Shown: positions 3,521 to 10,476 of the stretch, in pieces
Layout: the number at the start of each line of letters is the position of its first letter
How positions within the stretch are numbered: the stretch's first letter is position 1
Translations under genes and position numbers: made by a program
Virus record (IMG/VR): IMGVR_UViG_3300047094_000522
Location: 1 to 46,725 of that record
Direction: 5' to 3' (one strand)
Source of the DNA: a virus
Length of the DNA stretch: 46,725 nt
Notes under the pieces: generated by a model
The model's database searches: none
Told to the model about the DNA's origin: nothing
The model's input: only the letters and a program-made list of their open reading frames with translations

Positions 3521-3784
3521 TTACCTCTCAACCTTTCCACTGCACGGGCAGTCTGGGTGATGGCACACGCCACCACCAGCATGTTCAACAAACCAGTGCC
3601 CGTCGTGCTGGCGCGTGTGCAGGTTCCACGATTCTGGAGGCCCGTTGATTACCTGATCGACGCCGTCGCTGCTCCGGCTTGCTGCGCCCCTCGCAGCCGA
3701 TATCGCGGGCCAGAGTAACCCGGCCAGAGTTAGCAGGATGGCGACGACGACCACGGCTTCGACGAGCGTGAAGGCTTTTCTCAT
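3521..3784 (-). CDS. Pseudopilin-like protein (type IV prepilin N-terminus)
   Basis: 87 aa, ATG at 3784 overlapping the upstream stop (ATGA). It starts MRKAFTLVEAVVVVAILLTL: a short basic leader, then F-T-L-V-E with Glu at the fifth position after the expected cleavage point and a hydrophobic helix. This is the prepilin/pseudopilin processing signature, and LLWPAISAARGAASR just after it is close to the DUF1559 pattern of planctomycetes. The usual Gly before Phe is replaced by Ala (K-A-F-T), so cleavage by PilD is uncertain. The C-terminal part is short, with a small Cys/His cluster (CHHPDCPC). The role is unknown; it could enter the host pseudopilus or block it. Confidence 0.7.
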   Translation of the reverse strand: MRKAFTLVEAVVVVAILLTLAGLLWPAISAARGAASRSSDGVDQVINGPPESWNLHTRQHDGHWFVEHAGGGVCHHPDCPCSGKVER

Positions 3785-4098
3785 GTCGGCTCCTCCATCG
3801 GCACGAACTGAAGGTCGAACAACTTGCCGTCCCGGCTTCTCCAGACAACCTTTGACACCGACTCGTCTCTGTTCCGCCAGACTCCAAGCATCCCCGCCGA
3901 GAGGCTCCATCGCTTCGGGTGGTCTGCGTATGCCCTTGCCAGCTTGATCTTGTATCGAGAGTGGCCGTTCATTACGAACGTGCCGTCGAACCCGGCATAG
4001 GCGGGCGTGATGCACGGCTCTGGCTGGGGGGCAGGCTGCGACGCAATCGTGCCTACGGCAAGCGAGGAGAGCCACGAGAAGAAGCCACGACGGTCCAT
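3781..4098 (-). CDS. Exported protein with twin-arginine signal
   Basis: 105 aa, ATG at 4098 overlapping the upstream stop (TGATG). The N-terminus MDRRGFFSWLSSLAVGTIAS matches the Tat pattern (RR-x-F-F, then a moderately hydrophobic stretch), followed by a Pro-rich linker (QPAPQPEP). The mature part is beta-rich with many aromatic and basic residues (RYKIKLARAYADHPKRW, KVVWRSRDGKLFDLQF). No enzymatic family is recognised. The same cassette encodes a TatA homologue, so export through a Tat pore is a reasonable inference. It is coupled to the pseudopilin-like gene downstream. Confidence 0.7.
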   Translation of the reverse strand: MDRRGFFSWLSSLAVGTIASQPAPQPEPCITPAYAGFDGTFVMNGHSRYKIKLARAYADHPKRWSLSAGMLGVWRNRDESVSKVVWRSRDGKLFDLQFVPMEEPT

Positions 4099-6302: not shown

Positions 6303-6626
6303 TCAATGGCTGTACCGGAGGACGGCGAACCAGCCGCGGCGAGCCGGCGACCATGCAACGCCTCGCTCAACGATCCGATAGCGGCCACGCATGGCCTCGT
6401 TGTAGAAACATGCCGACTTCTCTGCCTCGAGCGGGCTGACGGTCGAGAAGCCTATGCCCTCTCGACGGCCCCCGAGCACGCGGCAGTGTTTCAGCAAGCC
6501 CGTGCGTGCGCATTCGTCGGCCGTCTGCTGGGCACTGACCACGGTCGTCGTGGTAACGACCACGTTCTGGGCGCTGGCGATAGTGGTCACGCACGCCAGA
6601 GCGAAAGCAAACAAAAACAGTCTCAT
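6303..6626 (-). CDS. Secreted protein with Sec signal peptide
   Basis: 107 aa, ATG at 6626 with CGGAGG upstream. MRLFLFAFALACVTTIASAQ is a classical Sec signal with A-x-A cleavage before QN. The mature chain is small, with three Cys (ECARTG, KHCRVL, SACFYN), EGIGFSTVSPLEAE, and a terminal AWSPARRGWFAVLRYSH. I associate this Cys/EGIGF/GW-x-A-V-x-RY pattern with short secreted planctomycete proteins of unknown role; that is recollection of family features, not a search. The gene has its own upstream motif and a strong hairpin after it, so it may be a separate transcription unit. Confidence 0.75.
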   Translation of the reverse strand: MRLFLFAFALACVTTIASAQNVVVTTTTVVSAQQTADECARTGLLKHCRVLGGRREGIGFSTVSPLEAEKSACFYNEAMRGRYRIVERGVAWSPARRGWFAVLRYSH

Positions 6627-7302: not shown

Positions 7303-7559
7303 TAACCAAGCCTCACATACAGCGGGCCGTTCTCGCCGACGAAAGCTCCGAGCGTGTTGAACTCGAGGAATTCGTCGGCCTCTTCGTGCGTCATCCCGTC
7401 GCGGTCGACGAGAGCCTGGACGCACTTGTCGTAGTCGTAGACGGCGACGACGGCGTGATGATGATTCGCCGTGTAGCCGATGAACGCCGACTCGAGGCCG
7501 TCGGCCAGGAGGGCTTCAGGGTTGATCTCGGTAAGCTCTTCAAGTCGTTCGGCGCTCAT
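7302..7559 (-). CDS. Hypothetical phage protein (HHH / acidic)
   Basis: 85 aa, ATG at 7559 overlapping the protease stop (ATGA). SAFIGYTANHHHAVVAVYDY and the following KCVQALVDRDGMTHEEADEF, ending FNTLGAFVGENGPLYVRL, are characteristic of a family often seen next to phage replication or accessory genes; function is unknown. The HHH run could bind metal but this is speculation. Confidence 0.65.
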   Translation of the reverse strand: MSAERLEELTEINPEALLADGLESAFIGYTANHHHAVVAVYDYDKCVQALVDRDGMTHEEADEFLEFNTLGAFVGENGPLYVRLG

Positions 7560-8287
7560 TCTCCGGTTACCTCCTTGATCCACTCCCGATACAAACTCAC
7601 CCGCGTGTGCGCCGTCTCCTCGCCCTGGCGGCTCTTCAGCGGCCCCCTCGGGGCCATCGTGAAGCTGTTGACCCCGGCCAGCTTGCCTCCGGCGAAAAGC
7701 GGGCCTCCTGAGTCCCCAGGCGAGATGCAGAACTCGAGCGTGCTCGTCCCACACTGAGCGTGGCAGACGATGACCGACCGCTCGAACCGCTCGATCGTCT
7801 GCGTCCCCGCCCGCAGCTTGCCGTCATAACCCTCGTGGCCCGCAGTCAGCTTTCCGTAGAGGCCGTAGCCGACGATGCTGACCGTCTGGCCGACCTTCTC
7901 GTCGCCGTCGCTGAGTGGTGGGTAGTAGGCAATGCCAGCGGGCTTGTCACAGTGCAGCAGGGCCAGATCGTGAAATCCGTTCTTGTCGTCGTCCCAGTCC
8001 GGGTGGATGACAACTCGGTCAACCAGACGGTTCGACAGCGTGATCCCGCTGACTCCGACTGCAACGTGCGCCGCCGTGATCGCCCAGTGCGGGGACAACA
8101 GAGTTGCCGTCGCCTCCGAGTATTTGCCGTCATCGTCGCGGCCGGAGAAGCGAACTGTGTAATCGCGGAATCGAGAACCGTACTCGATGTACCTCGCGTC
8201 CGGCACGGCGTCGTCGGTCGTGCCTGCCATCGCGGCGGGAACGCCCAGCAGGAAGGCGGCGAGGGCTTTGTCTTCGATGGGGGTCAT
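7556..8287 (-). CDS. Trypsin-like (S1) serine protease, probably exported
   Basis: 243 aa, chymotrypsin-fold. The catalytic triad is complete: H74 in ITAAHV, D107 in FHDLALLH and S193 in PGDSGGP. A Cys pair (C175/C179) and another pair near the active site (C113, C187) could form disulfides. Residues 8-21 (LAAFLLGVPAAMAG region) look like a hydrophobic signal ending A-M-A, although the n-region is acidic rather than basic, so export is likely but not certain. The chain is the normal length for a mature S1 enzyme plus signal. Phages rarely carry such enzymes; it could process host surface proteins, virion parts or rival phage receptors. It is coupled to the next gene by ATGA. Confidence 0.85.
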   Translation of the reverse strand: MTPIEDKALAAFLLGVPAAMAGTTDDAVPDARYIEYGSRFRDYTVRFSGRDDDGKYSEATATLLSPHWAITAAHVAVGVSGITLSNRLVDRVVIHPDWDDDKNGFHDLALLHCDKPAGIAYYPPLSDGDEKVGQTVSIVGYGLYGKLTAGHEGYDGKLRAGTQTIERFERSVIVCHAQCGTSTLEFCISPGDSGGPLFAGGKLAGVNSFTMAPRGPLKSRQGEETAHTRVSLYREWIKEVTGE

Positions 8288-9260: not shown

Positions 9261-9502
9261 CACTCACCGTTGAGAAATTGGAACCACGTTCGGGCCGGTT
9301 TCTTGAGCTGCTCGACATCGAACAGCACCGCTGCCCACGACTTCTCCAGAGCCTCGACGCGGGCAGTCAAGGCAGCGAGCCCCCTGCTGGTGACCACCAC
9401 CATGCGGTCGGTCGACTCGCCCTCCTCGCGTAGCTCGTGGACCGTCTTCGCGATACCGGCGAGAGACTGCTCGACGCTGAAAGCTGGCTTCTTCTTGCTC
9501 AC
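9260..9502 (-). CDS. Coiled-coil protein next to TatA homologue
   Basis: 80 aa from a GTG at 9502 that overlaps the TatA-like stop (GTGA). After a basic start (VSKKKPAFSVEQSLAGIAKT) the chain has leucine/valine heptads (VHELREEGESTDRM, LAALTARVEALEKSWAAVLF) and ends QLKKPARTWFQFLNGE. It may form an alpha-helical bundle. The neighbourhood suggests an accessory factor for the TatA-like protein, but no similarity to TatB or TatC is seen. Confidence 0.6.
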   Translation of the reverse strand: MSKKKPAFSVEQSLAGIAKTVHELREEGESTDRMVVVTSRGLAALTARVEALEKSWAAVLFDVEQLKKPARTWFQFLNGE

Positions 9503-9675
9503 GACTTCACTCCTTCTTCGATTTTCTTGCATTCGGCGTCGATCTCGAGAAAGCCCCTCTTGAACTCGACGATGCTCTGCCCCACGCTCCTGGCGACCTT
9601 CGGCAGACGCCCGCCGAACAGCATCACGCTGACCATGCCGATGATTGCGACCTCGATCGTTCCTAGCCCGAACAT
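9499..9675 (-). CDS. tatA: TatA-like Sec-independent translocase subunit
   Basis: 58 aa, ATG at 9675 with CAAGGAGAAG 6-8 bases upstream. The start MFGLGTIEVAIIGMVSVMLF is the TatA transmembrane helix, followed by GGRLPKVARSVGQSIVEFKR, the FG-hinge, Leu-Pro and amphipathic helix, and a polar charged tail (AECKKIEEGVKS). All canonical TatA features are present: short periplasmic N-terminus, F20-G21 hinge, LP (24-25). It is shorter than chromosomal TatA because the C-terminal tail is reduced. Its start overlaps by 13 bases a gene whose product has a Tat-like RR signal. It would form or modify the host Tat pore; TatC must come from the host. Confidence 0.85.
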   Translation of the reverse strand: MFGLGTIEVAIIGMVSVMLFGGRLPKVARSVGQSIVEFKRGFLEIDAECKKIEEGVKS

Positions 9676-9956
9676 GCCTCTTCTCCTTGATGAGGAAGTG
9701 AAAGAACACCAACGTCCAGATACTCAGGCAACAGGATTGCCTTGATGTCGGAGAAGCCCTGGGCGTCCAGCTTGCTCCGAATGTCGGTCTTGAGGGCTTC
9801 AATCGCATGCGGCGGTGCAGCATGCTTGAGCTTGAATACCAACAGAGTTCGCGTGCCCGGCGAGTTCTCGACGACCGTCGGCGGCGAGACGGGGACAGCG
9901 GCTAGTGCCGGGACTGTGAAAATGCTCTGAAGCAGCGTGCGGCGTGTTTCGTTCAT
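9663..9956 (-). CDS. Exported protein with Tat-like signal
   Basis: 97 aa, ATG at 9956 in an ATGA overlap. MNETRRTLLQSIFTVPALAA contains a twin-arginine motif (T-R-R-T-L-L-Q) followed by a hydrophobic region and A-x-A-like cleavage (LAA-V). The mature part (TLLVFKLKHAAPPHAIEALK, KLDAQGFSDIKAILLPE) is a mixed alpha/beta fold and resembles small phage proteins of unknown function. It is directly upstream of tatA, with 13 bases shared, suggesting the exported protein and the translocase subunit are expressed together. Confidence 0.65.
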   Translation of the reverse strand: MNETRRTLLQSIFTVPALAAVPVSPPTVVENSPGTRTLLVFKLKHAAPPHAIEALKTDIRSKLDAQGFSDIKAILLPEYLDVGVLSLPHQGEEACSG

Positions 9957-10297
9957 TTCTGAATGCCCTTCAGTAGCCTTGCGATCTCTTCCGCCGTCGG
10001 CGGCTTCGGCTTGGTCGCCTCAATTGCCTCGCTCACCGTCCATGCCGCCATGTTGCGAGCCAGCTTGCCGAACTCCTCGGGCGTCATCAGCCCTTCCTGG
10101 CATCGGTCGGCCATGCGGACGGCGAGGTCGTGCGTCAGGCTCCACAGGCGGGATTCCCAGTCGGTCGGCAGCCGGTGCATCTCGTAGCCAGACGGCAGAG
10201 TGTGTGTTCTCATCTCGCGATCCAGTTCCCTCAGAGAAATCCCTGCGTTCAGGAGAGCCTTACGAAACTTCGCCGTGTCGGCAGTGACGTTGATCAC
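9953..10297 (-). CDS. Hypothetical protein
   Basis: 114 aa, ATG at 10297 overlapping the csrA stop (ATGA). The middle of the chain (WESRLWSLTHDLAVRMADRC) is helical and amphipathic, and AAWTVSEAIEATKPKPPTAE leads to a final helix. It has no membrane segment and no recognised motif. It is translated together with csrA, so may be a first target or partner of the regulator, but this is inference. Confidence 0.55.
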   Translation of the reverse strand: MINVTADTAKFRKALLNAGISLRELDREMRTHTLPSGYEMHRLPTDWESRLWSLTHDLAVRMADRCQEGLMTPEEFGKLARNMAAWTVSEAIEATKPKPPTAEEIARLLKGIQK

Positions 10298-10476
10298 GAC
10301 GCCGTCTCCTTAGGCGGAGCCCGATAGATCAGCTCCTCACGCACGATCTTGACGTGCCTGGGGGCGTCGATGACCAGACGCACCGTCTTGCCGACCACGG
10401 ATTCCACCGTGATCTCGATATGCGGTCGATCCAGAATCAGCTTCTGACCGGGGCGACGTGTTAAGCAGAGTGCCAT
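10294..10476 (-). CDS. csrA: CsrA-family RNA-binding regulator
   Basis: 60 aa, the normal CsrA size. MALCLTRRPGQKLILDRPHI aligns with the CsrA start (M-x-x-L-T-R-x-x-G-x-x), then EITVESVVGKTVRLVIDAP matches the central strands (V-x-G-x-x-V-R-x-G-I-x-AP), and HVKIVREEL supplies the R-E-E of the RNA-binding edge. CsrA dimers bind GGA motifs in mRNA leaders to block or promote translation. The phage version may rewire host carbon-storage, motility or surface genes. Its leader shares 19 bases with another gene leader in the window, including GGA motifs over the Shine-Dalgarno, so autoregulation is plausible. Confidence 0.88.
   Translation of the reverse strand: MALCLTRRPGQKLILDRPHIEITVESVVGKTVRLVIDAPRHVKIVREELIYRAPPKETAS

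Follow-up and report, generated by a model that had tools for sequence, protein, structure and literature searches.

The locus described here raises the question of why a virus should encode TatA, a subunit of the Tat translocase, directly beside a gene whose product begins with a twin-arginine (RR) signal. The window, by which we mean the whole stretch of DNA analysed, is an IMG/VR virus record of 46,725 nucleotides (IMGVR_UViG_3300047094_000522), and its gene content is that of a phage, with an integrase, SNF2-like and UvrD-like helicases, a primase-polymerase and tail-type genes. The main features are collected in Table 1. The reading that we favour, and consider probable, is that positions 9499-10297 represent an accessory export cassette, in which the phage TatA would work with the TatC of the host to export small proteins of the phage.

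Table 1. Features of the tatA locus and the second RR gene in the window.
Feature	Position	Strand	Remarks
Downstream neighbour, 80 aa	9260-9502	minus	Other edge of the cassette; overlaps the tatA stop by 4 nt
Phage TatA, 58 aa	9499-9675	minus	PF02416 match and invariant functional residues
Shine-Dalgarno AAGGAG of tatA	9683-9688	minus	Inside the upstream gene, 7 nt spacing
S1 cargo gene, 97 aa, MNETRRTLLQ...	9663-9956	minus	Twin-arginine signal; overlaps tatA by 13 nt
Third cassette gene, 114 aa	9953-10297	minus	No assigned function; homologues beside S1-tatA in three relatives
CsrA-like regulator	10294-10476	minus	PF02599, 2.8e-15; upstream of the cassette, remains where the cassette is missing
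Stretch replaced by 28 bp in G071	9525-10281	no strand	Scars at both ends
Second twin-arginine signal gene, 105 aa, MDRRGFFSWL...	3781-4098	minus	Outside the tatA cassette

Identification of the phage TatA

The preliminary description of this DNA, which was made from the sequence alone, had named the 58-residue product (MFGLGTIEVAIIGMVSVMLFGGRLPKVARSVGQSIVEFKRGFLEIDAECKKIEEGVKS) as TatA, and profile searches bear this out. The product matches PF02416 (TatA_B_E) with an E value of 6.7e-9 and 35.3 bits (gathering score, 21), and the TatA proteins of all 12 records in which the gene is found exceed this cut-off. TatB identity is disfavoured, because the NCBIfam tatAE model (1.3e-9) is preferred over tatB (0.003; both are under NCBIfam's strict cut-offs), and the FGG or FGS hinge, the lack of a proline after the hinge glycine and the short C-terminus are TatA-like rather than TatB-like. 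A profile built from the phage proteins also matches TatA structures in the PDB (chloroplast 7b7o, 2e-8; also 9e07, 2l16 and 2lzs). AlphaFold models the phage protein with modest confidence as one continuous helix of residues 4-57 (pLDDT 78, pTM 0.39), and a Foldseek search with this model matched only TatA 2lzs and a TatBC chain, neither of them significantly.

The sequence features needed by TatA have been delineated (PMC9527704), and basically consist of 8-10 N-terminal residues and, just before the membrane helix, a polar residue, which in two-component systems is acidic; a helix of 12 residues that ends in Phe and is followed by a strict Gly hinge; and an amphipathic helix that starts basic, has a Gly at its centre and an FK motif, and ends acidic, the remaining tail being dispensable. 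Every one of these features is present and invariant in 10 aligned phage TatAs. The N-terminus, MFGLGTIE, places eight residues before the membrane helix and provides the acidic E8; residues 9-20 form the hydrophobic helix (VAIIGMVSVMLF), with F20 and G21 at its end and hinge; and the amphipathic helix has R23, G32, F38-K39, E44 and E48. Three of the 10 proteins have four extra N-terminal residues. Following the amphipathic helix is a phage-specific segment, GFLEVEAEC, which is unusually conserved.

A chance open reading frame is ruled out by the profile match, the 11 relatives described below, the Shine-Dalgarno motif, which recurs in 11 of 12 relatives, and the dN/dS values, which are approximately 0.1-0.3 between most of the phage genes and indicate that tatA is under strong purifying selection. 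Such a gene was thought at first to be hard to find by gene calling; this proved not to be so, as it was picked up by a simple caller based on codon usage and set to a minimum of 30 aa.

Distribution and probable host

The gene occurs in related phages as well: TatA is encoded by 11 more IMG/VR contigs (65-81% identity), and core genes of the window are common to all of them. Host contamination is ruled out, because all 12 records have common phage genes (helicase, primase, integrase and tail). Searches with a helicase profile and with another core gene brought together a much larger set of related records, and TatA was absent from all 84 of the other related viral records searched, which makes tatA an accessory gene. 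TatC was found in none of the 12 TatA+ records (which may be fragments), and therefore the receptor of the host would have to be used.

A single subunit without TatC would also suit poisoning, as would the unusual conservation of GFLEVEAEC, and one might propose that the phage TatA is a dominant-negative decoy that blocks the translocase of the host or redirects it, for example to keep out a defence or envelope factor. We consider this very unlikely, since no functional residue is changed and the co-selection with RR cargo (see below) speaks for working export.

The best cellular matches of the phage TatA, in a search of 84,980 bacterial and archaeal species genomes, are TatAs of Planctomycetota, which are 42-68% identical over the matched stretch; TatA matches occur in 360 of 392 sampled Planctomycetota genomes. 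These relationships suggest a planctomycete host. With two core genes as queries, no prophage of the TatA clade was found in the 392 genomes, so that we still infer the host rather than observe it. The tree of phage and host TatAs has too few columns to decide on a single phage origin. Planctomycete genomes often contain two TatA-type genes, and these lie side by side in four of five cases (G096-G099 and G103, the genomes of L024, L025, L026, L031 and L038).

The PHROG families have no match to the phage TatA, and no TatA was found in a genuine cultured-phage record of INPHARED. Matches in Salmonella and Acinetobacter “phage” records of that collection were rejected because they look like pieces of host chromosome: two Salmonella records with Tat matches are host assemblies, and in the Acinetobacter record that was opened, tatABC sits among ssu genes. 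A Staphylococcus match is weak. AFYI01000004, AGRM01000003, CAKLQH020000024 (the one of these four that was opened) and CAKLQF020000015 are apparent host pieces with tatABC or tatE, and such pieces are a source of false “phage Tat” annotations.

Twin-arginine signals around tatA

Genes were called in all 12 TatA+ contigs and, for comparison, in 23 large relatives that lack TatA (TatA-), and their products were scanned with a home-made pattern (a start, RR within eight residues, a hydrophobic residue and an uncharged hydrophobic stretch). The TatA+ contigs have 24 matches among 878 genes, with at least one in each contig, while the TatA- relatives have 10 among 2120; approximately five of these ten look genuine, and they come from four of the 23 contigs. 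Control scans for KK, RK and KR gave zero or one match per group.

The matches are concentrated at tatA itself. Its immediate upstream neighbour is an RR gene in 10 of the 12 records, and these neighbours belong to two unrelated families (S1 and S3); of the 24 RR genes, 17 are no more than six genes away from tatA. The locus common to G002 and G003 differs, with csrA upstream of tatA and the RR gene 13 genes off. The coupling of tatA to a Tat-signal gene, first proposed from the overlap in the window, is upheld, and the pairing is stronger than the sequence of the window alone shows, with ten loci and two unrelated cargo families.

When the upstream partner is excluded, an RR gene is present in 9 of 11 TatA+ contigs and in 4 of 23 TatA- contigs (Fisher p about 5e-4), in a type of test that is weakened by relatedness among the contigs. 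The helicase tree provides four well-supported independent contrasts, and RR genes follow tatA in 3.2 of these on average, and never the opposite; the co-occurrence on phylogenetically independent pairs is not significant, because there are only four contrasts. Curated Tat-signal models place some of the cargo of the relatives below threshold (15.7 bits versus 16.7 for TIGR01409; 13.8 versus 22.7 for PF10518) and have no match for the two RR genes of the window.

An alternative that bears on these counts is that the phage TatA boosts general host Tat capacity, or replaces the host TatA after shut-off, and serves mainly host or envelope enzymes. The phage protein does resemble an intact planctomycete-type TatA, and any working extra TatA would also serve host substrates. 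We regard this as unlikely all the same, as it leaves unexplained the RR gene upstream of tatA in most loci, the clustering of RR genes around it, and a cargo family, S1, that is found only with tatA.

Putative cargo families

S1 of the window starts with MNETRRTLLQSIFTVPALAA. Its homologues occur in six relatives, all of them TatA+ contigs, and each time directly upstream of tatA. The RR pair and one proline are invariant in six S1 proteins, and nothing else is; the other S1 proteins are 25-45% identical to that of the window, and the dN values of 0.5-1.1 correspond to a quick divergence. A constrained tatA and a fast-changing S1 are what one would expect if the former is part of a machine and the latter an interaction protein that evolves quickly. 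The mature part of S1 gives a low-confidence alpha/beta model with no significant structural match. Among the 392 Planctomycetota genomes, S1 has a single match, which we judged to be a chance frame.

S3 is the RR gene upstream of tatA in G006, G008 and G011, and its body is unrelated to that of S1, from which it follows that the cargo partner changed while the signal stayed. The S3 protein of G006 (L007) matches the HK97 capsid family PF05065 over the Pfam cut-off (30 bits versus 24) and is weakly similar to the capsid protein of its own phage; portal-like pieces in the S3 proteins of G006 and G008 are below cut-off. The arrangement can be seen at L007:7302-7940 and L009:7311-7901, where a Tat-type signal is joined to a body similar to HK97 capsid protein, with weak portal-like pieces, directly upstream of tatA. 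S2 is a small family located near or far from tatA, and it is also present in three TatA- relatives, with the RR pair there too. Both arginines are among the few invariant residues in each cargo family.

These patterns bear on neutral hitch-hiking, in which a single capture brought in tatA along with an RR gene, and tatA was then kept by chance in a recombining block. That the phage TatAs look like one family and that the cassette is patchy across the tree would agree with such a history, but we think it highly improbable: the dN/dS values, with the strong purifying selection on tatA, already disfavour it, the upstream RR gene differs in family between lineages, and extra RR genes pile up around tatA.

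The second RR gene of the window (Table 1), whose product starts with MDRRGFFSWLSSLAVGTIAS, had been assigned to the same cassette as tatA. This assignment does not hold, since the gene is 17 genes away from tatA, and G014, a contig without tatA, has a homologue of it (69%). Its product is probably Tat cargo, but encoded outside the cassette.

Other genes of the window

Three other genes of the window, all on the minus strand, are notable. The end of the second RR gene is overlapped by 3521-3784, which encodes an 87-aa prepilin-like protein (MRKAFTLVEAVVVVAILLTLAGLLW...) with an N-terminal methylation motif over the cut-off (PF07963, 22.6 versus 21.2 bits), so that a phage pseudopilin-like gene adjoins a Tat cargo gene; a relative of this protein is present in the TatA- contig G075. 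The small product of 6303-6626 has a Sec-type signal and carries the conserved motif GFSTVSP...GW; it has no Pfam match and is present in many relatives, both those with tatA and those without. The gene at 7556-8287, in the accessory region, encodes a trypsin-like protease (PF00089, 2.6e-17) that may have a Sec signal; homologues occur in G007, G012 and G071.

Layout and loss of the cassette

The gene order in the window is csrA, the 114-aa gene, S1, tatA and the downstream gene, and successive genes overlap by 4, 4, 13 and 4 nt. The CsrA-like gene is found at a constant position in many phages of the clade, with or without the cassette. In G071, a near relative whose neighbouring genes are mostly 95-100% identical to those of the window, csrA adjoins the downstream gene, and tatA, S1 and the 114-aa gene are gone. 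What is left of tatA is its last codons, and of the 114-aa gene its first codons. Such scars in both outer genes are most readily explained by a deletion that took the cassette in one piece, and on this reading the cassette was once present in the G071 lineage and is dispensable.

The loss also bears on whether TatA was recruited as a small holin or permeabiliser, which lowers the membrane potential or times lysis and whose RR neighbours are incidental. TatA and one-helix holins are alike in architecture and in the proposed thinning mechanism (PMC9527704), and no canonical holin was identified among the window proteins put to family searches. We nevertheless find this role quite unlikely. The invariant residues (E8, G21, F38-K39) are those for TatC binding and transport rather than permeabilisation; tatA lies in a small-gene accessory region, is cleanly lost in G071 and is missing in the 84 related records, unlike a lysis gene; and its coupling to RR signals would stay unexplained.

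Proposed role of the cassette

In the export reading, TatA and a small RR-signal cargo would be made from one overlapping operon, and during infection or lysogeny the phage TatA would insert into the host inner membrane, join the host TatC (and TatB, if present) via Glu8, and cluster once the receptor binds the RR signal peptide. The short TatA helix would then thin the membrane, so that small folded phage proteins reach the periplasm. The extra TatA may raise translocation capacity when cargo is made, or it may favour the phage cargo. We infer both the export and the partnership with host TatC from sequence comparisons, which suggest that the virus tunes host folded-protein export for its own cargo.

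The preliminary description went further and proposed a dedicated export route. The pairing of TatA with Tat signals supports this in part, while a fully dedicated route is contradicted by the lack of TatC in the 12 records, by the S2-type and 3781-4098-type cargo in relatives without tatA, and by the accessory nature of tatA itself. That similar RR cargo occurs in relatives without tatA also counts against an export module, as does the fact that the hosts already have one or two TatA genes. An extra TatA could still matter, because TatA binds some cargo directly, which raises transport efficiency (PMC4361764), and because dependence on cargo can vary between TatA paralogues (PMC4148689).

The exported proteins would act in the periplasm, most likely in envelope modification or in superinfection exclusion. 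Among the small proteins that temperate phages export, many target the envelope or counter superinfection, and interference with other phages would agree with the capsid-like and portal-like bodies of S3. A broader proposal, which we offer tentatively and rate as rather doubtful, is that there is a class of phage export modules, in which tailed phages supply a pore-side translocase subunit adapted to their own cargo (by the GFLEVEAEC tail and a cargo-matched N-terminus), with some of the cargo derived from capsid or portal fragments and acting in the periplasm, for example by blocking superinfecting relatives.

Comparison with known systems

Phages are known to use host Sec and Tat passively, and the phages of Planctomycetota are hardly studied. 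The open-access literature searched gave no account of a TatA encoded by a phage and coupled to Tat cargo, which does not make priority certain. If the proposal is true, a phage block in which a subunit of the Tat translocase is combined with Tat cargo of the phage amounts to a remodelling of the host protein-export machine. It makes testable whether the supply or identity of TatA limits or selects Tat cargo in nature, for which the phage cassettes offer TatA and substrate in naturally matched pairs, and it directs attention to phage proteins in the periplasm of Planctomycetota.

The closest known protein is the chromosomal TatA of planctomycetes (TatA/TatE family, PF02416), which has the fold plan and all functional residues in common with the phage TatA. 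The phage protein differs in that it is shorter (58-67 aa), lacks the long disordered tail and has the GFLEVEAEC segment added, and in that it is encoded in phage genomes without TatC and is coupled to RR cargo. The TatA1 and TatA2 paralogues of Campylobacter jejuni, which have different substrate dependence (PMC4148689), are similar as a case of extra TatA in one cell; however, C. jejuni TatA2 is without two essential residues and is a cellular gene, whereas the phage TatA keeps all of them and belongs to a phage cassette. A marine viral genome is annotated with TatC in a figure (PMC10564846), where the annotation carries no cargo link. It is likewise a Tat component in an environmental phage, but according to that annotation it is TatC and not TatA, the reverse of the present clade, which lacks TatC. 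Finally, the one-helix holins of the TpeE/BhlA type (PMC9527704) are small proteins with one short membrane helix and an amphipathic helix, as is the phage TatA, but they have no sequence relation to it, and it is the phage protein that carries the TatA-specific residues.
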